Shown: piece after piece, positions 33,514-64,000 of the stretch | Numbering within the stretch: position 1 is the stretch's first letter | Layout of the letters: each line of letters starts with the position of its first letter | Origin: Clavibacter zhangzhiyongii | GTDB lineage: Bacteria > Actinomycetota > Actinomycetes > Actinomycetales > Microbacteriaceae | Assembly: GCF_014775655.1 (NCBI RefSeq) | Contig: NZ_CP061274.1 | Location: 1,550,001 to 1,614,000, forward strand | Direction of reading: 5' to 3' | Length of the DNA: 64,000 bases | Made by a program: the position numbers and the translations under genes | Notes under the pieces: model-generated | Told to the model about the DNA's origin: nothing | The model's database searches: none | What the model saw: only the letters and a program-made list of their open reading frames with translations

Positions 33514-35341
<1,828 letters not shown>

Positions 35342-56297: not shown

Positions 56298-56303
56298 TAC
56301 CGT
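56298..56303 (+). promoter_or_regulatory. Probable -10 element of the RiPP locus
   Basis: TACCGT lies just upstream of the inverted repeat. Transcription would begin around 56310, inside the operator, leaving a leader of about 40 nt with Shine-Dalgarno AGGGAGGA before the precursor ATG. Confidence 0.45.
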
Positions 56304-56308
56304 GCCCG

Positions 56309-56329
56309 TACTGAGAACCGTTCTCAGTA
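56309..56329 (+). promoter_or_regulatory. Fur/Zur-type operator, perfect 21-bp inverted repeat
   Basis: Arms TACTGAGAAC and GTTCTCAGTA flank a single central C. The inner 7-1-7 core (TGAGAAC, C, GTTCTCA) has the geometry of Fur-family boxes. It agrees with the actinobacterial Zur consensus TGAAAATGATTTTCA at 10 of 15 positions. It does not resemble the DtxR/IdeR box (TTAGGTTAG arms). It sits 21 nt upstream of the precursor ATG, over the expected transcription start. Metal-dependent repression is therefore likely; zinc is favoured over iron on consensus only. Confidence 0.8.
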
Positions 56330-56350
56330 ACTGACAGGGAGGATGCCGAC

Positions 56351-56539
56351 ATGATCGACGTCACCATCACCAGGATCGCCGGCGACGACGTGCTGAGCGC
56401 GCCGCAGGGACCGGGCACGAACGCGCTCGTCCACAATCCGTTCGCCGTCGAGGCGATCGCCGGCGACGACGTGCTCAGCGCGCCGCAGGGACCGGGCACG
56501 AACGCCCTCGTCCACAACCCCTTCGCTCTCCAGCACTAG
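56351..56539 (+). CDS. RiPP precursor peptide with two identical 24-residue units
   Basis: A 62-residue peptide. A short start MIDVTITR is followed by unit 1 (9-32), spacer VEA, unit 2 (36-59) and the tail LQH. Each unit begins IAGDDVLS, has a central APQGPGTNA, and ends LVHNPFA. The units are identical in protein but differ at five third codon positions, all silent. There is no Cys; each unit has one Ser and one Thr that could become (methyl)oxazolines, and one His. No canonical long leader is present. Recognition could lie in the IAGDDVL part of each unit, or unit 1 could serve as leader for unit 2. Shine-Dalgarno AGGGAGGA precedes the ATG. The product is not recognised. Confidence 0.85.
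   Translation: MIDVTITRIAGDDVLSAPQGPGTNALVHNPFAVEAIAGDDVLSAPQGPGTNALVHNPFALQH
56375..56527 (+). repeat. Tandem 81-bp-period repeat inside the precursor gene
   Basis: Two 72-nt copies (56375-56446 and 56456-56527) separated by 9 nt. They differ at five positions, each a synonymous third base. Confidence 0.95.
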
Positions 56540-56549
56540 GAGAGGGAAG

Positions 56550-56579
56550 CCGGCCGGCGCGCGACGGCGCGCCGGCCGG
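56550..56579 (+). terminator. Strong hairpin between RiPP precursor and enzyme genes
   Basis: A perfect 13-bp GC stem (56550-56562 with 56567-56579) and GACG loop, 10 nt after the precursor stop. Probably a partial terminator or mRNA-stabilising element that makes the precursor transcript more abundant than the downstream enzyme message. Confidence 0.8.
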
Positions 56580-56654
56580 GACGACGCCCGCCCGCGTCCG
56601 ACGCCCCCGCATCCGCCGCCCGGCCCCGCCGCCGCCCACCGATCGTGAGACCCG

Positions 56655-57566
56655 ATGCTCCGCCTCGCCCCGCACCACCTCCTGTACCGCGTCGCCGCCG
56701 ACGAGTGGCGGCACGTGACCCCCGCCCGCGAGTTCCACCGCGTGAGCGGACCCGACGCCCTCGTCGCCGACGTCGCCCGGCGCCTCGCGGGCGACGGCAT
56801 CGCGGATCCCGACGCCCCGGCCCCGGCGTCGTCCGACGACCCGGGCACCCCGCTCGTGCGGCTCCTGCGGGACCGCGGCGCGGCGATCGAGGGCGTCCCC
56901 GACCCCTCCCGCCCGCTGCCCGGGAACGCCCCCGTGTCCGTCGAGGGCGACGGCCCGGTCGCGCGGGCGCTCCTCGCCCTGCTCGGCGACCGCGCGACGC
57001 CGCTCGCCTCGGACGCCGCCGTGCCCGCGGCCGCATGCGCGCTCGTCTCCATCGCCCCCGAGCAGCCCGACGCCGCGTGGTCCGCCCGGGGGCGCGAGCT
57101 CGCCCGCACCGGACTGCCCTGGCATCGGGTGCACCAGGAGGGCGAGCTCCTCGTCGTCGGGCCGCTGCAGGCGCCGGGCGGCCCGGGCGCCGTCGCCTAC
57201 GCCGACTACCGCGGCCGTCGCCGTGCCGCGCACCGCGTGGTGGAGGAGCTCGACCGGTTGTGGCGGGAGGCGGACGCGCGCGCCGCTGCGGGGATCACGG
57301 CGCCATGGGCGTGGCACGGTGTGGGTGTCGGCGCGGCGGCCATCGCCGCGGGCATCGTCGTCGACGAGCTCGAGGCGCACCTCGACCCCTCCGGCGGGGG
57401 CTCGCCCGGCGTGCGGCACGAGCACACGATCGCCCTCGCCACCGGCCTCGTCGAGCGCCACCCCGTGCTGCCGCTGCCCGTCGACCTCGCCGACCCGCCG
57501 GTCGCGCTCGCGACCGCCGACGGCCTCCCCACCGCGCCCCACCTCCCCGTCGCGGTCGACCGATGA
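56655..57566 (+). CDS. E1-like cyclodehydratase partner (RRE plus ThiF-like) of the RiPP locus
   Basis: A 303-residue protein. The N-terminus (MLRLAPHHLLYRVAADEWRH ... about 1-80) looks like a PqqD-type winged-helix RiPP recognition element. The middle has an E1/ThiF-like nucleotide-fold start (VSVEGDGPVARALLALLGD, about 94-112). GPLQAPG follows at 169-175, the pattern of azoline-cyclodehydratase C proteins. In that family the next segment usually carries zinc cysteines; here it reads AVAYADYRGRRR and the whole protein has one Cys (Cys128). It is probably a leader-binding partner that presents the precursor to the YcaO enzymes. Its stop overlaps the hydrolase start (ATGA). Confidence 0.72.
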   Translation: MLRLAPHHLLYRVAADEWRHVTPAREFHRVSGPDALVADVARRLAGDGIADPDAPAPASSDDPGTPLVRLLRDRGAAIEGVPDPSRPLPGNAPVSVEGDGPVARALLALLGDRATPLASDAAVPAAACALVSIAPEQPDAAWSARGRELARTGLPWHRVHQEGELLVVGPLQAPGGPGAVAYADYRGRRRAAHRVVEELDRLWREADARAAAGITAPWAWHGVGVGAAAIAAGIVVDELEAHLDPSGGGSPGVRHEHTIALATGLVERHPVLPLPVDLADPPVALATADGLPTAPHLPVAVDR

Positions 57567-59146
57567 CCGGCACCTCGGGCTTCGCCCTGCCGCTCCGCGC
57601 GTCCGACGGCGTCGTCCTCGTGCACGACGCGCACGTGCCGGAGGGCGCCGGGGCCGACGGGCCGACCGTGCCCTGCATCGTGACGCGCACCCCCTACGGC
57701 CGCTCCCGGCACCTCGCCGAGGGCCGCGCCTGGCGCGAGCGCGGCTTCGCGTACGTGGCGCAGGACGTCCGCGGCCGTCACGACTCGGACGGGACGTGGG
57801 TCCCCTACCGCGGGGAGCGCTCCGACGGGGCGGCCCTCGTCGACTGGGTCGTCGCGCAGCCCTGGAGCGACGGACGCGTCGTCGCGTACGGCGGCTCGTA
57901 CTCCGGCTGCACCGCGTGGGCGATGGCGGTCGAGCGTCCCGCGGCGGTACGCGCCGTCGTGTCCCTCGGCCCGTCGATGTCGCTCGGCCGCACCAAGTTC
58001 GGCGGCGGGGGGATCCTGCGGCTCGCCGAGCACGCGGCCTGGTGGCTCGAGCGCGGCGACGCCCGCACGAGCCGCGACGGCCTCGCGGCGCTCGTCTTCG
58101 GGGAGCGGCCCGGGATCCTGCGGCACCTGCCCGTCGTCGACCTGCCGGACGCGCTCGGCGCGCACCTGCCGTCGTGGCGGCGGATCGTGGAGGACGGACC
58201 CGACGCGCGGACGGGGGAGGAGATCACGCCCGACGAGCTCGCCGCCCTCGACGCCGCGACCCTGCACGTCGGCGGCTGGCACGACCTGCTGCTCCCGGAG
58301 ACGCTCGAGCACCATCGCCTGGCCGGATCCGCCGTGCCCGGCACCCCCGCGCACCTCCTCGTCGGACCGTGGGAGCACGACCTCGCGAGCAGCGGCTCGG
58401 GTCGGATCGGCGACCTCGACCACGGGGACGACGCCGTCCTCCCGTGGGGCCGGATGCTCGTCGACTGGATCCGCGACGCCCTCGACGCCGCCCTGCCGCC
58501 CCGGCGCGCGCAGGTGCACGTCCGCGGATCCGGCTGGGAGCAGCACGAGCACTGGCCGCCGCCGCATGCGCTCACCCGCGTGGAGTGGGCGGCGGGCGGC
58601 CCGGTCGGCATCGTGCACGACCCGCGCGATCCGCGTCCGTCCCGCCACCCGGGCGTCGACCGGCGCGCCCTCGCGTCCCGGCCGGACGCGGTGCGCGCCA
58701 CCGCCCTCCCGATCACCGCGCCCCTGCGCCTCACCGGCGACGTCGCGGTGGAGCTCGTGAGCTGCTCCGACGCGCCCGGCGTGGACTGGGTCGCCCGGCT
58801 CCTCGCCCGCACCCCCGACGGCGCCGAGCAGGAGCTCGCGGTCGGGGAGACGACCGTCGCCGGACCCCACGACGGCCTCCGCGTCGCCGTCCCGCTCGGA
58901 CCCGTCGCGGTCGTCCTCGCGGCGGGCACCGTGCTCGTGCTCGAGCTGGCCGGCGCCGACGCGCCCCGGCTCGCGCGGAACCTCGGCGGGCCGCCGGGGG
59001 AGCGGTGCACCTCCACGCGGCAGGCGACGGTGCGGCAGGGCGTGCGCATCGACCCGGACGCGCCGCTCGCGCTCACGCTGCCGGTCGCGTCGGGATGCGT
59101 CCCGCCGCCCGACGGCGTGCGGGCCGGCGGGGAGGAGGCCCCGTGA
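57563..59146 (+). CDS. CocE/NonD (S15-type) serine hydrolase of the RiPP locus
   Basis: A 527-residue alpha/beta hydrolase of the X-Pro dipeptidyl-peptidase/cocaine-esterase family. Nucleophile Ser112 is in GGSYSG; the Asp is in HVGGWHDLLLPE and the His in VGPWEHDL. The C-terminal jelly-roll domain follows (ITAPLRLTGDVAVELV onwards). There is no signal peptide, so it acts in the cytosol. It overlaps both neighbours (ATGA and GTGA), which ties it to the pathway. It may cleave the precursor (each unit has Ala-Pro, Gly-Pro and Asn-Pro bonds), trim the product, or hydrolyse an ester. These roles are inference. Confidence 0.83.
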   Translation: MTGTSGFALPLRASDGVVLVHDAHVPEGAGADGPTVPCIVTRTPYGRSRHLAEGRAWRERGFAYVAQDVRGRHDSDGTWVPYRGERSDGAALVDWVVAQPWSDGRVVAYGGSYSGCTAWAMAVERPAAVRAVVSLGPSMSLGRTKFGGGGILRLAEHAAWWLERGDARTSRDGLAALVFGERPGILRHLPVVDLPDALGAHLPSWRRIVEDGPDARTGEEITPDELAALDAATLHVGGWHDLLLPETLEHHRLAGSAVPGTPAHLLVGPWEHDLASSGSGRIGDLDHGDDAVLPWGRMLVDWIRDALDAALPPRRAQVHVRGSGWEQHEHWPPPHALTRVEWAAGGPVGIVHDPRDPRPSRHPGVDRRALASRPDAVRATALPITAPLRLTGDVAVELVSCSDAPGVDWVARLLARTPDGAEQELAVGETTVAGPHDGLRVAVPLGPVAVVLAAGTVLVLELAGADAPRLARNLGGPPGERCTSTRQATVRQGVRIDPDAPLALTLPVASGCVPPPDGVRAGGEEAP

Positions 59147-60519
59147 ACGTCGCCGACCTGGTGGACGCGCGCACGGGACTCATCACGTCGCTCGCGCGCC
59201 AGCCCGCGGATCCCCGCCTCCCGTTCGCCTGGGTGGGCCACGGCGCGACCGTCTCCCGCGCCGACCGCTTCTCGCCGTGGCGCGCGGACGGCTTCGGATT
59301 CGGCGCGTCCTCGGGCGATCCGGTCCCCGCGCGCCTCGCCGCGTGCGGGGAGGCCGTCGAGCGGTACTGCGGCAACGCCGTGCCGGAGCGCCTCGTCCGC
59401 GGCTCGCACGCGTCCCTCACCGCGGGAGGCGCGAGGGTGCTGGATCCCGAGTCGCTCGCCCTGTACTCGCCCGCGCAGCACGCCGCGCCCGGCTTCCCGT
59501 TCCGCCCGTTCACGCGCCGCTCCGAGGCGCTCTGGACTCCGGGGGTCGACCTCCATGACGGCGGGCCCGTGCTCGTGCCCGCCACGCTCGCCTGGCTCGA
59601 CGTCGTGCACGGCTCCCGCGCCGGCGAGGTGCCGCGGCACTCGCTCGCCTACTCCGGCATCGCCACGGGATCCGACCGCCGCATGGCGGAGCGCAACGCC
59701 CTCGAGGAGCTGTGGGAGCGCGACGCCACCGCCGTCTGGTGGGCGAGCGGCGCGTCGACGCGCGCGATCGACGACGGCGGCCGGATCACCGGGGCCCTCG
59801 GCTGGGCGGAGGACGCCACGACACCGCCCGTGCGCGTGCGCCTGCTCGAGGTGCCGTCGGAGTCGCCCGCGCCCGTCGTCGCCGCGTTCCTCGAGGAGGA
59901 GCACGACGACGGATCCCGGCTGGTCGCCTTCGGCAGCGCCTGCCGGAGCACACCCGCGGGCGCCGCGACGAAGGCCCTCGTCGAGGCGCTCGGCCTGCTG
60001 CAGCTCACCCGCCAGCTCGTCGACCCGGCGAGCGAGGTGTGGCGGGCCGTCCGCGCGGGCGGCATCGAGGAGCACGTGTTCCTGCCGTACCGCGCGGATC
60101 GCCGCTACCTCGACGACGCGGGTCCCGGGTACGCGCGGCTCGTCGACCTGCCGTCCGTCGCGCAGCTGCACCTCGACCCGCGGATGAACGGCGCGCACCT
60201 CGACCGGCTGCGACCGGACGCGTCCGTGCCGCTCGACGACCTCCCGCGCATCGCCGCCGCCGACCCCCGGCAGGCGCACCTCCAGGAGCTGGCCCGGCAG
60301 GGCCTCCGCGCGGTGTCGGTGGACCTCACCACGCCCGACGTCCGGCTCGCCGGGCTCGAGGTGGTGCGCGTCGTCGTGCCGGGGCTCGTGGGCAACGGGC
60401 CGCCCGCGTACCCGCTCCGCGGATCCGCCCGCTACCTGGAGGTGCCGCGGCGCCTCGGGCTCGACCGCATCCCCGCGACCGCCGACGACCTCGTCCCCGA
60501 CCCGATCCCCCTGGCATGA
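59143..60519 (+). CDS. YcaO cyclodehydratase, copy 1
   Basis: A 458-residue YcaO-domain enzyme that would use ATP to activate backbone amides. Motifs are GEAVERYCGN (69-78, with Glu70 and Glu73), MAERNALEELWERDA (181-195) and GSACRSTPAGAATKALVEALGLLQ, which match the three parts of the YcaO ATP/magnesium site. The protein ends VPDPIPLA, giving the PxPxP tail (452-456) of azoline-forming YcaO enzymes. The GTG start at 59143 follows GGAGGAGG and overlaps the hydrolase stop. It is paralogous to the next gene. Confidence 0.88.
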   Translation: MNVADLVDARTGLITSLARQPADPRLPFAWVGHGATVSRADRFSPWRADGFGFGASSGDPVPARLAACGEAVERYCGNAVPERLVRGSHASLTAGGARVLDPESLALYSPAQHAAPGFPFRPFTRRSEALWTPGVDLHDGGPVLVPATLAWLDVVHGSRAGEVPRHSLAYSGIATGSDRRMAERNALEELWERDATAVWWASGASTRAIDDGGRITGALGWAEDATTPPVRVRLLEVPSESPAPVVAAFLEEEHDDGSRLVAFGSACRSTPAGAATKALVEALGLLQLTRQLVDPASEVWRAVRAGGIEEHVFLPYRADRRYLDDAGPGYARLVDLPSVAQLHLDPRMNGAHLDRLRPDASVPLDDLPRIAAADPRQAHLQELARQGLRAVSVDLTTPDVRLAGLEVVRVVVPGLVGNGPPAYPLRGSARYLEVPRRLGLDRIPATADDLVPDPIPLA

Positions 60520-61862
60520 GAGGCCGCATGGACGCCGACCCCTACCCCGCCCCGACCTCGACGCCGGCCGACCTCGTGGACGCGCGCACGGGCGTCGTCC
60601 GCCGCATCGAGCAGCGCCGGATCCCGGCCCACTTCCCGCCCGCCTTCGCGCTCGCGCACGCCGTGCTCGCCGACTCGACCGCGTCCTGCGGCTGGGCCTC
60701 CGACGCGTCCGGGGCCGGCCACGCCTTCGCGGATCCCGACGCCGTGCTCGGCGCCGCCGTGGGCGAGGCGGTGGAGCGCTACTGCGGCAACGTCGTGCCG
60801 TCGGGCCTCGTCCGCGCGTCCGCCCGCGAGCTCGCCGCCGCTGGCCGTGACGTGCTGGACCCGCGCGAGCTCGCGCTCTACTCCGCCGCCCAGCACGCGT
60901 CGGGCCGGCTGCCCGTCGCGGTCCTCGACCGGGACGCCATCGTCGACTGGACGGAGGCCGCGCGCCTCGGCACGGACGGGCGCGTGCTCGTGCCCGCATC
61001 GCTGGTGTGGGTGTCGCACGCGCTCCTCGTGCCCCCGGCGGTGCACCCGATCATGCAGGCGGGGCTCGCGACCGGCCGGTCCGAGCGCGAGGCGCTCTGG
61101 GGCGGCCTCGGGGAGGTGCTCGAGCGGGAGGCGATGACGCGCGCGTGGACGGACGGCGCCGGCTTCGTCGAGCTCGACGTGCCGCGCGAGCTGCACGACC
61201 TGGCGCGCGGGCCCGCCGACGCCCTGTCCTGCCGCTGGCTCCTCCTCCCCGCGGAGGGCGGACTGCCCGTGCTGGGGGCGCTGCTGCGCGACGCACGCAC
61301 CGGGTACCTCACCCTCGGCATGGCGAGCGGCGGCCGACCCGTGCGCGCCGCCCGCAAGGCGCTGGGGGAGGCCCTGCAGCTGCAGCTGTTCCAGGCCGAC
61401 CTCGACGATCCGACCGGCCCCTACATGGCCGCGGCCCGCGAGCCCGGCAGCCCGCTGAAGCCGTGGCGCGCCGACCGCGCCCACCGCCTGTCGTACCGCG
61501 CGGACCTCTCCGACGTCGTCGACTACGGCTGCCACCTGCAGCTGCACCTCGACCCGGTGATCCAGCGCACGTTCCTCGACGAGCTCGACCGGTCGATCAC
61601 CGGGCGCCGGGCCCTCGCCGACCTCGACGACCGGTTCGACGGACCCGACCGCCTGCCGGAGCTCGTCGACGCGCTGCGGGCGGGCGGCCGCGAGGTGCTC
61701 GCGGTCGACGTGACCCTGCCGGAGATCCGACGCGCGGGCCTGCACGTGGTGCGCGTGATCGTGCCGGGCCTCCGCTCGAACGCGCCGCACGCGCTGCCGT
61801 TCCTCGGCGGGCCGGGACCCGCGAGGCCGCGACCCGCGCGGCCCGTGCCGCTGCCGCACTGA
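60516..61862 (+). CDS. YcaO cyclodehydratase, copy 2
   Basis: A 448-residue paralogue of the preceding YcaO. Both share the N-terminal ADLVDARTG segment and the same GEAVERYCGN motif (83-92 here). The second and third motifs are EREALWGGLGEVLEREA and GMASGGRPVRAARKALGEALQLQ. It also ends in a PxPxP tail (PVPLP, 443-447). ATG 60516 overlaps the upstream stop (ATGA); ATG 60528 after GAGAGG is an alternative that removes four residues. Two complete YcaO enzymes imply either a heteromeric complex or two separate reactions. Confidence 0.87.
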   Translation: MRGRMDADPYPAPTSTPADLVDARTGVVRRIEQRRIPAHFPPAFALAHAVLADSTASCGWASDASGAGHAFADPDAVLGAAVGEAVERYCGNVVPSGLVRASARELAAAGRDVLDPRELALYSAAQHASGRLPVAVLDRDAIVDWTEAARLGTDGRVLVPASLVWVSHALLVPPAVHPIMQAGLATGRSEREALWGGLGEVLEREAMTRAWTDGAGFVELDVPRELHDLARGPADALSCRWLLLPAEGGLPVLGALLRDARTGYLTLGMASGGRPVRAARKALGEALQLQLFQADLDDPTGPYMAAAREPGSPLKPWRADRAHRLSYRADLSDVVDYGCHLQLHLDPVIQRTFLDELDRSITGRRALADLDDRFDGPDRLPELVDALRAGGREVLAVDVTLPEIRRAGLHVVRVIVPGLRSNAPHALPFLGGPGPARPRPARPVPLPH

Positions 61863-61948
61863 GCTCCGGCGGCCCGCCGCACCCCGACCCGCCGCCCCAC
61901 GACCATCCGCCGGCCCGCCGGCGCCCCACCCTCCCGACGGAGAGCGAC

Positions 61949-63091
61949 ATGGATCCCACGACCGCCCCCGCGCCCGACGCGCCCGCCCCGCCCGCACCCG
62001 ACGGCTCCTCGCCGCGCCACCCGGCGCCCCCGCCGCCGCCGCCGCATTGCGCGCGCCTCGCCCGGCGGGCCCTCGTGCCCGCCCTCGTCCTCGCCGCCCC
62101 GCTGGTCCTCGCGATCGCGATGGGCGTCGGATCGGTGTCCGTGTCGCCGCTGCACGTCGCGCAGGTCGTCCTGCACCACGCGCTCGGCGCGGACCCGCTC
62201 GGCCCGGGCGTCGACCCGATCGACGACCAGATCGTGTGGGAGTACCGTGCGCCGCGGGTCCTGCTCGCGCTCGTCACGGGCGCCGCGCTCGCCCTGGCGG
62301 GGACCGTGCTGCAGACCCTGATCCGGAACCCGCTCGCCGACCCCTTCGTCCTCGGCATCGCGTCCGGCGCCTCGCTCGGCGCGGTGGCGGCGCTCGTCGT
62401 GGGGGCGTCGGCGGCGGGGATCCTCGCGACCCTCGGGGTCACCGGCGCCGCCTTCGCGGGCGCCCTCGGGACCCTCGCGCTCGTGCTGGCGCTCGGCCGT
62501 CGGGGCGGCCGCGTCGATCCGGCGCGGCTCGTCCTCGTGGGCGTCTCGATCTCGTCCCTCCTGCAGGCGCTCACCAGCTGGCTGCAGCTCCAGGCGTCGC
62601 CCGACCAGATCGCCGGCGTGCTCTTCTGGCTGCTCGGCAGCGTCTCGGGCGCCTCCTGGGCGTCGCTCGCCCTGCCCGCCTCCGCGCTGGCGCTCGGCCT
62701 CGTGGGGCTCCTCGGCGGCGCGCGCACCCTCGACGCGCTGCTCCTCGGCGACGACCGCGCGGCGTCGCTCGGCGTCGACCTGTCGCGCTCGCGCACGATC
62801 CTCTTCGCGGTCTCCGCGCTCCTCACGGCCGCCGCGGTGTCCGTCGCCGGCGGCGTCGGCTTCGTCGGGCTCATCGCGCCGCACCTGGTCCGGCTCGTCG
62901 TCGGGCCCGGACACCGGCGGCTCCTGCCGCTCGCCGCGCTCGTCGGCGGCCTGTTCCTCGTCCTCGCCGACCTGGCCGGCCGGACGCTCACCGCGCCGCG
63001 CGAGCTGCCGCTCTCCATCGTGACCGCGCTCGTCGGCGTGCCCGTCTTCCTGGCGGTCCTGCTCCGCGCGGACGGGGGACGGACCCGATGA
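61949..63091 (+). CDS. FecCD-family metallophore/B12-type ABC permease
   Basis: A 380-residue permease of the BtuC/FecCD class with about nine to ten helices after a disordered Pro/Ala-rich start. Family motifs are VWEYRAPRVLLALVTGAALALAGTVLQTLIRNPLADPFVLGIASGASLGA (read in pieces at about 95-150), GGVGFVGLIAPHLVRLVVGPGHR and the C-terminal AGRTLTAPRELPLSIVTALVGVPVFL. This class imports siderophores, heme, cobalamin and other metallophores. ATG 61949 lies 86 bp after YcaO 2 with a CGGAGAG Shine-Dalgarno. It overlaps the ATPase gene (ATGA). Confidence 0.93.
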   Translation: MDPTTAPAPDAPAPPAPDGSSPRHPAPPPPPPHCARLARRALVPALVLAAPLVLAIAMGVGSVSVSPLHVAQVVLHHALGADPLGPGVDPIDDQIVWEYRAPRVLLALVTGAALALAGTVLQTLIRNPLADPFVLGIASGASLGAVAALVVGASAAGILATLGVTGAAFAGALGTLALVLALGRRGGRVDPARLVLVGVSISSLLQALTSWLQLQASPDQIAGVLFWLLGSVSGASWASLALPASALALGLVGLLGGARTLDALLLGDDRAASLGVDLSRSRTILFAVSALLTAAAVSVAGGVGFVGLIAPHLVRLVVGPGHRRLLPLAALVGGLFLVLADLAGRTLTAPRELPLSIVTALVGVPVFLAVLLRADGGRTR

Positions 63092-63876
63092 GGCTCGCGA
63101 TCCGCGACGTCGCCGTCCGCATCGGCCGCGCCACGCCCGTCACCGAGGCGACGCTCGAGGCGCGCGACGGGGAGCTCGTGGGCCTCGTGGGCCCGAACGG
63201 CAGCGGCAAGTCCACCCTGCTCAAGGCCCTGTACCGCGCCCTGCCCGTCGCGCAGGGCACCGTCCTCCTCGGCGACCGCGACCTCCGCGGGATGCGCCCG
63301 CGCGACTCCGCCCGGATCGTCGCCGCCCTCACGCAGGACCACGGGGACGACGGAGCGCTCGACGTGCGCGCCGTCGTCGCGACGGGCCTCACTCCGCACA
63401 AGGGCGCGCTCGACCGCGACACCGCCGACGACCGCGCGACCGTCGACGCGTGCCTCGCCCGCACGGGAGCGGCCGGCCTCGCCGACCGCGCCGTCCGGTC
63501 CCTGTCCGGCGGGGAGCGCCAGCGCGTCATGCTCGCCGCGGCGCTCGCGCAGCGTCCCCGCATCCTGGTGCTCGACGAGCCGACGAACCACCTCGACGTC
63601 GCCACCCAGCTCGAGCTGCTCGACCTCGTGCGCGGGCTCGGGATCACCGTGGTCGTCGCCCTGCACGACCTCAACCTGGCCGCCGCGTACTGCGACCGCA
63701 TCCACGTCGTGCACCACGGCCGCATCGTCGCGGGCGGCACGCCCGACGAGGTGCTCCGCCCCGGGATCCTGCGCGACGTCTTCGGCGTCGACGTCCACCT
63801 GGGCGAGCACCCCGTCACCGGCCGCCGCCACCTCTTCTTCAGCACGCCCACCACCCCCCAGGACGGACGACCATGA
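63088..63876 (+). CDS. FecE/BtuD-type ABC transporter ATPase
   Basis: A 262-residue ATPase. Walker A GPNGSGKS (35-42), signature LSGGERQR (139-146), Walker B ILVLDEP (159-165) and switch His in VALHDLNLAAAYCDR. This is the siderophore/B12 importer subfamily, matching the permease it overlaps. It also overlaps the binding-protein gene by ATGA. Confidence 0.95.
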   Translation: MRLAIRDVAVRIGRATPVTEATLEARDGELVGLVGPNGSGKSTLLKALYRALPVAQGTVLLGDRDLRGMRPRDSARIVAALTQDHGDDGALDVRAVVATGLTPHKGALDRDTADDRATVDACLARTGAAGLADRAVRSLSGGERQRVMLAAALAQRPRILVLDEPTNHLDVATQLELLDLVRGLGITVVVALHDLNLAAAYCDRIHVVHHGRIVAGGTPDEVLRPGILRDVFGVDVHLGEHPVTGRRHLFFSTPTTPQDGRP

Positions 63877-64000
63877 CCCCCGCACCTCCCGCACGCCCCC
63901 GCGCCGCCGCGCGCCTCCCCACCCTCGCCGCGGCCCTCGCCGCCGTGCTCGTCCTCGCGGGCTGCGCGGCCGACGCCCCCGCGGCCCCGCCCGCCGCCGA
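63873..64000 (+). CDS. Substrate-binding lipoprotein of the FecBCDE importer (5' part only)
   Basis: The visible 42 residues form a lipoprotein signal peptide: Arg-rich start, hydrophobic LAAALAAVLVLAGC, with the lipobox Cys followed by an Ala/Pro-rich linker. The rest lies beyond the right edge. Position directly after permease and ATPase, with ATGA overlap, makes it the periplasmic-binding-protein-like component. Its ligand domain is the piece most needed to judge what the RiPP locus handles. Confidence 0.8.
   Translation, partial: MTPAPPARPRAAARLPTLAAALAAVLVLAGCAADAPAAPPAA

Follow-up and report, generated by a model that had tools for sequence, protein, structure and literature searches.

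Streptamidine is the one solved product of a family of ribosomally synthesized and post-translationally modified peptides (RiPPs) described by Russell et al. in 2021 (PMC8442711; the papers cited here by PMC number are represented by parts of their text, and statements drawn from them are limited to those parts). Its core, HLSATH, carries an amidine ring. The family comes from more than 230 species, with 237 such precursors of two motifs, and has no known function. Its genes are amiA to amiE, a FecBCDE importer (amiF1–F4) and ATP-binding cassette (ABC) exporters (amiT1–T2), many clusters being without amiE. Frankia, Rhodococcus and Clavibacter hold a mostly motif-B subset with two YcaO enzymes. 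Production in S. albidoflavus requires amiB, amiC, amiD, amiE and amiF1–F4. A role in metal import has been proposed for the family and was not confirmed (PMC8442711). The present analysis concerns a locus of Clavibacter zhangzhiyongii in a window of 64,000 nt, the whole stretch of DNA analysed (positions 1,550,001–1,614,000 of contig NZ_CP061274.1, assembly GCF_014775655.1). From position 56298 onwards the window holds a precursor gene, two YcaO genes and a FecBCDE-type importer behind a palindrome that resembles the binding site of the zinc regulator Zur. The family and the metal-import idea are known from the published work (PMC8442711); the predicted zinc switch at streptamidine-family loci was not encountered in the literature searched.

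The box is a perfect 10-1-10 palindrome, TACTGAGAACCGTTCTCAGTA (56309–56329, no strand), ending 21 nt upstream of the precursor start codon. A preliminary description, made from the letters of the window alone, had named a perfect Fur/Zur-type palindrome on this promoter, and 10 of 10 arm pairs are indeed complementary. The core, TGANAACNGTTNTCA, occurs once in the host genome, a single 3.1-Mb contig. Chromatin immunoprecipitation (ChIP) in S. coelicolor yielded the Zur motif tGaNNatSatNNtCa, and a 21-bp actinobacterial Zur palindrome, taaTGaNAANNNTTNtCANta, has been published (PMC5472717). Zinc-dependent binding to such 10-1-10 repeats has been shown in C. glutamicum (PMC2823685). Of the 15 set positions of the published 21-mer, 14 are matched by the box, the best agreement among the 12 sites of the genome. 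These sites are the places in 3.1 Mb at which TGANAANNNTTNTCA is found with at most one mismatch; the reversed control is found at none.

Clear zinc neighbours accompany three of the 12 sites besides the ami promoter. One box lies between AztA and AztB genes, both above the NCBIfam cut-off, with AztD nearby. Another precedes a CobW-C protein gene, and a third stands ahead of a ZnuA-type gene, the first of a run that also includes ZnuC- and ZnuB-like genes and one of the Fur family. A zinc island (L223, 7151–13375; genome contig about 261,150–267,375) brings together CobW-C, AztA, AztB, an AztD-like open reading frame (ORF), a full AztD (472 bits, cut-off 400) and two boxes. The Fur-family protein of the ZnuA-headed run has its best PDB matches in 3mwm and 7vo0 ('putative metal uptake regulation protein'), which we take to be S. 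coelicolor Zur, and in 2o03 ('probable zinc uptake regulation protein FurB'). The second and only other Fur-family match in the genome, at 658728, is closest to PerR over the matched stretch, and none of the 12 sites lies near it. The genome's other YcaO cluster served as a control locus (L005) and shows no box at up to two mismatches in 19 kb. Because the promoter box fits the published Zur motif and is common to zinc genes in this genome, it can very likely be assigned to zinc, with binding by Zur predicted from sequence. It is highly probable that Zur controls the ami operon. Two other Zur-type boxes lie on the genome contig at 34807, 121 nt upstream of a RecQ helicase gene, and at 438634, next to a TetR-type gene that has a phospholipase C gene in its vicinity.

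The same box was sought in three sets of family loci. Set 1 comprises 33 loci (the present locus, six others of its genus and 26 that come from 25 genomes sampled within the class), set 2 the best 80 of 290 YcaO relatives, and set 3 37 Streptomyces clusters (all 34 matches among 246 genomes and three more). Since the sets overlap and hold close relatives, their box counts are not independent events. Precursors were anchored by a search pattern. Before an anchored precursor, the zone searched runs from 420 to 30 nt before the NALV codon, and 19 control palindromes of the same letters were run alongside. Set 1 contains 35 boxes at up to one mismatch, 16 of them exact, where first-order resamples give 0.35 on average; five of the 33 loci have none, and some boxes lie far from the precursor. 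Among the 29 of 33 loci that were anchored, the box is exact in 11, within one mismatch in 20 and within two in 26; the corresponding control means are 0, 0.2 and 1.5 and the maxima 0, 3 and 12. Set 2 holds 28 exact and 48 one-mismatch boxes, spread over 49 of 80 loci, and the 19 whole-locus controls gave no exact match and 0–16 one-mismatch matches. Its 38 anchored precursors (14 motif A, 24 motif B) are preceded by the box in 15, 26 and 36 cases at zero, up to one and up to two mismatches (control means 0, 0.3 and 2.5; maxima 0, 5 and 16). At up to two mismatches the precursors of L127 (Frankia) and L133, a metagenome-assembled genome, are not preceded by a box, and the non-actinobacterial loci L139, L158 and L163 show no box at all at up to one.

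Streptomyces clusters carry the box at up to one mismatch in 36 of 37 cases: 25 times before amiA and 24 times some 4–5 kb upstream, ahead of the Fec genes, with 13 clusters having it at both places. The exception, L246, has an amiA with neither box nor FecCD in the 10-kb stretch fetched. Streptamidine's own HLSATH core is found in 15 of the 34 precursors of this set given in full, and all 15 have a box before amiA. A plasmid search for family YcaO genes returned two records, from Rhodococcus and Streptomyces. On the large, linear plasmid pNit of Rhodococcus rhodochrous, a gene annotated 'streptamidine family RiPP' (L264, 7000–7098) lies about 80 nt downstream of an exact box, with Fec-type importer genes close by. 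Whole-genome searches of four family members gave one to six exact boxes each, placed at ami in two (G364 and G289) and also beside ZnuA/AztC-type, AztB-type and ribosomal L33 genes. On these comparisons the box is a recurring trait of the streptamidine family across many bacteria.

Membership of the locus in the published family is close to certain on sequence grounds. The AmiA-related precursor (56351–56539, plus strand, 62 residues) contains two copies of one 24-residue unit, which begin at residues 9 and 36, and scores 120.4 bits with NF040715, 'streptamidine-related RiPP repeat protein' (cut-off 45). With NF040714, the streptamidine equivalog, it reaches 26.2 bits, under the cut-off of 40. 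YcaO and an AmiC-type hydrolase adjoin the precursor, as in the streptamidine family (NF040715/NF040714), and FecBCDE-type importer genes are present as well. The locus is very probably a member of the two-YcaO subset, for which no product was found described in the parts of PMC8442711 covered here. The preliminary description had known of no described compound with this precursor and had expected azolines. A novel RiPP class is rejected by the NF040715 match, the precursor type having already been published as the streptamidine family (PMC8442711); azoline chemistry is not established, and the family's one solved product is an amidine.

Conservation in relatives, suggested as a check in the same description, bears the assignment out, the precursor being kept beside the YcaO genes. 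NF040715 is carried by seven of 149 relatives including this genome, all seven within the 18 genomes of the genus. One genus member has a precursor of three units. The four of the other six genus precursors that have the same length differ by one to two residue changes and two to five synonymous codon changes, and AmiB identity is 70–78% across the four genus members aligned. YcaO-1, YcaO-2 or AmiC is matched in two pieces in some of L077, L078, L079 and L068, and the AmiB-like stretch of L068 contains a stop; assembly errors or decay would account for these. In the YcaO alignment used for set 2, the L077 row is out of frame at its start, the gene having been matched as two pieces in different frames.

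The remaining genes follow on the plus strand. An AmiB-like protein, E1-like by tentative assignment and the presumed precursor-binding partner (56655–57566, 303 residues), is followed by an AmiC-like CocE/NonD (S15) hydrolase (57563–59146, 527 residues; TIGR00976 218 bits, PF02129 140 bits). Next come YcaO-1, which is AmiD-like (59143–60519, 458 residues; PF02624, and TIGR03604 above cut-off at 269 bits), and YcaO-2 (60516–61862, 448 residues; PF02624 151 bits, TIGR03604 just under cut-off), for which an alternative start is possible at 60528. The two YcaO proteins are 38% identical. Successive genes overlap by ATGA (AmiB-like/hydrolase), GTGA (hydrolase/YcaO-1) and ATGA (YcaO-1/YcaO-2). The importer begins 86 bp 3' of the YcaO-2 stop with an AmiF-like FecCD permease (61949–63091; PF01032 310 bits) and continues with an AmiF-like FecE ATPase (63088–63876; PF00005, best NCBIfam match TIGR03873, below cut-off) and a FecB substrate-binding lipoprotein of which the window holds only the start (63873–64000; PF01497 79.9 bits). 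Sequence beyond the window (L004) completes FecB, whose end at window-equivalent 64868 is overlapped by the start of a major facilitator superfamily (MFS) exporter gene at window-equivalent 64861–66129, plus strand (MFS_1 74 bits; 65.7 bits with the enterobactin exporter EntS model, below its cut-off of 324). From the precursor to the MFS gene the run contains no amiE dehydrogenase and no amiT1–T2 ABC exporters. Much of this was anticipated: the chain of overlapping genes, the 62-residue precursor upstream and the importer 86 bp downstream are exactly as the preliminary description gave them, and the call of a YcaO RiPP operon is upheld by PF02624 in both YcaO proteins, by NF040715 and by TIGR00976/PF02129. 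It had also looked to the sequence past 64000 for the rest of the binding protein and for an exporter or dehydrogenase; FecB was completed and an exporter found there, and no dehydrogenase lies in the run.

The gene which that description read as the E1-like/RRE (RiPP recognition element) partner stands at the expected place, and its sequence call as E1-like falls below the cut-off (TIGR03882 29.1 bits against 36.9). The protein has no Pfam match and no relative at E 0.001 in a PDB sequence search, and when its profile was set against that of the other E1-like protein in the genome, the probability was 3.8%. It is kept at the same place in motif-B loci. A fold prediction (RRE/E1-like) has been published for AmiB of the streptamidine cluster (PMC8442711), and it is because of this prediction and the gene's position that the protein is called E1-like here, a weak assignment.

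The reading that best fits the locus is a zinc-starvation operon of the streptamidine family whose peptide is secreted and re-imported; we hold it with moderate confidence. The following course of events is proposed. (i) With zinc present, zinc-bound Zur would sit on the promoter palindrome and keep the operon off. (ii) On zinc depletion the repeat precursor would be made. (iii) The AmiB-like protein would hand the precursor over to the two YcaO enzymes, whose likely product is an amidine or azoline located ahead of the NALVxxPF block. (iv) The S15 hydrolase would help to excise the core. Steps (iii) and (iv) are assigned to these proteins because of the published amiB, amiC and amiD deletions in S. 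albidoflavus. (v) The small peptide would leave the cell through the MFS protein. (vi) Outside, it would bind zinc or a zinc complex and be taken back by FecB–FecCD–FecE. A role of the ami product in zinc supply is probable; whether the mature peptide is itself the zinc ligand we regard as evenly balanced. The preliminary description had proposed a scavenger that is exported, loaded and re-imported. Exporter and importer do stand in one gene run, and the metal-scavenging part continues as a proposal.

Several observations weigh against such an operon. Foremost is the published binding work, which speaks most strongly against a chelator: of seven metals (Fe(II), Co, Cu, Mg, Mn, Ni and Zn) streptamidine bound none, and it was negative in the chrome azurol S (CAS) assay (PMC8442711). 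An amiD null mutant had no phenotype in metal starvation (PMC8442711). Deletion of amiF1–F4 abolished production (PMC8442711), which is unexpected for a mere re-importer. Eight of the 12 genome sites have no clear zinc link: RecQ, the TetR-type gene, a family-less secreted protein and five one-mismatch sites, one of which falls where an iron-type binding protein gene starts. In set 2, 31 of 80 loci have no box at up to one mismatch and the precursor of 42 of 80 was not anchored by the search pattern. The Frankia-type loci L072, L073 and L127 and a second copy, L083, are boxless before the precursor at up to two mismatches. In G232 an exact box adjoins a PerR-like gene, and at up to one mismatch the ami precursor has none close to it. 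A symmetric variant, TGGAAA-N3-TTTCCA, stands before the precursor in six Rhodococcus, Nocardia and Pseudonocardia loci (L118, L120, L135, L143, L150, L161); with its two changes it occurs once per genome in four genomes searched, by position only at ami, and may point to an altered or distinct regulator of the Fur family. As to the binding data, since amiE is essential though streptamidine shows no oxidation (PMC8442711), zinc-starved cells may produce a form other than the compound isolated.

These results bear unequally on the other explanations. A product under Zur control that is no chelator, such as a competition factor or a signal at zinc scarcity, with FecBCDE importing another zinc complex, or the peptide for feedback or immunity, would suit both the failure of streptamidine to bind metals, with no starvation phenotype, and the need for amiF1–F4 (PMC8442711), the latter as in a feedback loop; motif-B cores, moreover, lack Cys and are poor in metal-binding side chains. 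In the patterns used for these residue counts, Q, T, NALV and P (motif B) or S, HSNALV and PF (motif A) are set beforehand, so that the constancy of these letters is imposed and only the remaining positions could vary. A competition factor sits poorly with the lack of antibacterial and antifungal activity in streptamidine (PMC8442711), and importer and peptide genes remain together in most loci (FecCD in reach in 65 of the 80 loci of set 2, some of the other 15 being short contigs). We consider this explanation unlikely, while giving it real weight. That the locus serves iron or corrinoid uptake under a Fur-type iron box is improbable. Such a function is suggested by the FecCD/FecE/FecB families, by BtuC/BtuF and siderophore models matched below their cut-offs, and by an 'iron ABC transporter permease' annotation in the Rhodococcus plasmid. 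The box is common to zinc transporter genes in this genome, and iron control in Actinobacteria works mainly through DtxR/IdeR-type boxes. Streptamidine was also negative for CAS and Fe(II) binding (PMC8442711). That the palindrome serves another Fur-family regulator such as PerR is very improbable: Fur-family boxes resemble one another and G232 has its exact box by a PerR-like gene, but the present genome has its sites at zinc genes, and the PerR-like gene at 658728 is near none of the 12. Fur-type palindromes are short, and the box and its neighbourhood could in principle be coincidence. The permuted-palindrome and resampling controls, the low whole-genome counts and the fixed place before the precursor in many genera leave that explanation a negligible chance at this locus, and for the family as a whole the box counts refute it.

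A G+C-rich hairpin of 13 bp lies between precursor and amiB (56550–56579, plus strand; fold z −2.81). Hairpins of 12–13 bp are predicted there in four of four further genus members folded (L076, L077, L079, L080), and none of that kind is predicted between precursor and amiB of Arthrobacter L114. It may be a processing or attenuation signal, and more precursor than enzyme could result. The second YcaO cluster of the genome (L005, 6960–11395; genome contig about 2,900,959–2,905,394, minus strand) is unrelated and comprises ABC-type genes, a SagB-type dehydrogenase, YcaO, an E1-like protein and a Cys/Ser-rich ORF of 70 residues with no NCBIfam match. A 2015 survey placed Clavibacter among the hosts of plantazolicin-type clusters (PMC4603692).

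The shared, predicted zinc-starvation box makes the function of the streptamidine family directly testable. If the zinc reading is true, a very common orphan YcaO peptide family acquires a purpose, and chemists learn under which condition, zinc starvation, to seek the true product. Extended to the whole family, motifs A and B alike, it would make these peptides Zur-controlled zinc-acquisition RiPPs, the 2021 compound being a trimmed or immature form and the true ligand appearing only in zinc-starved cells; this extension is tentative, with the balance slightly against it. It would give the first YcaO-made zincophore class, as we know of none before. Among openly licensed articles, supplements aside, no paper was found that links the streptamidine family or YcaO peptides to Zur, and among the matches listed for zincophore RiPPs and for zinc/YcaO metallophores none but the 2021 paper bore on the subject.

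Metallophores under Zur control have been described elsewhere, namely coelibactin, ethylenediamine-disuccinate and pseudopaline (reviewed in PMC6103462). Bottromycin and klebsazolicin are amidine RiPPs whose rings are made by YcaO enzymes, a likeness that holds only if the product here resembles streptamidine (PMC8442711). With the three metallophores the locus shares the placing of small-molecule biosynthesis under Zur, in this case by prediction. To our knowledge those three are not YcaO-modified ribosomal peptides, and bottromycin and klebsazolicin have other precursors, with no Zur link or importer that we know of. The two-YcaO subset is closest: genus, paired YcaO enzymes and NF040715 precursor type are the same, and the parts of PMC8442711 covered here reveal no difference. 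Unlike the ami cluster of S. albidoflavus J1074, the locus has a repeat precursor of motif-B type that lacks the HLSATH core, a pair of YcaO enzymes and no amiE dehydrogenase in its gene run, and the MFS protein replaces the amiT1–T2 ABC exporters. In common with that cluster it has an AmiA-type precursor with the NALVxNPF block, the AmiB-like protein, the AmiC hydrolase, YcaO and FecBCDE, and Streptomyces clusters of streptamidine's own HLSATH core carry the same box.

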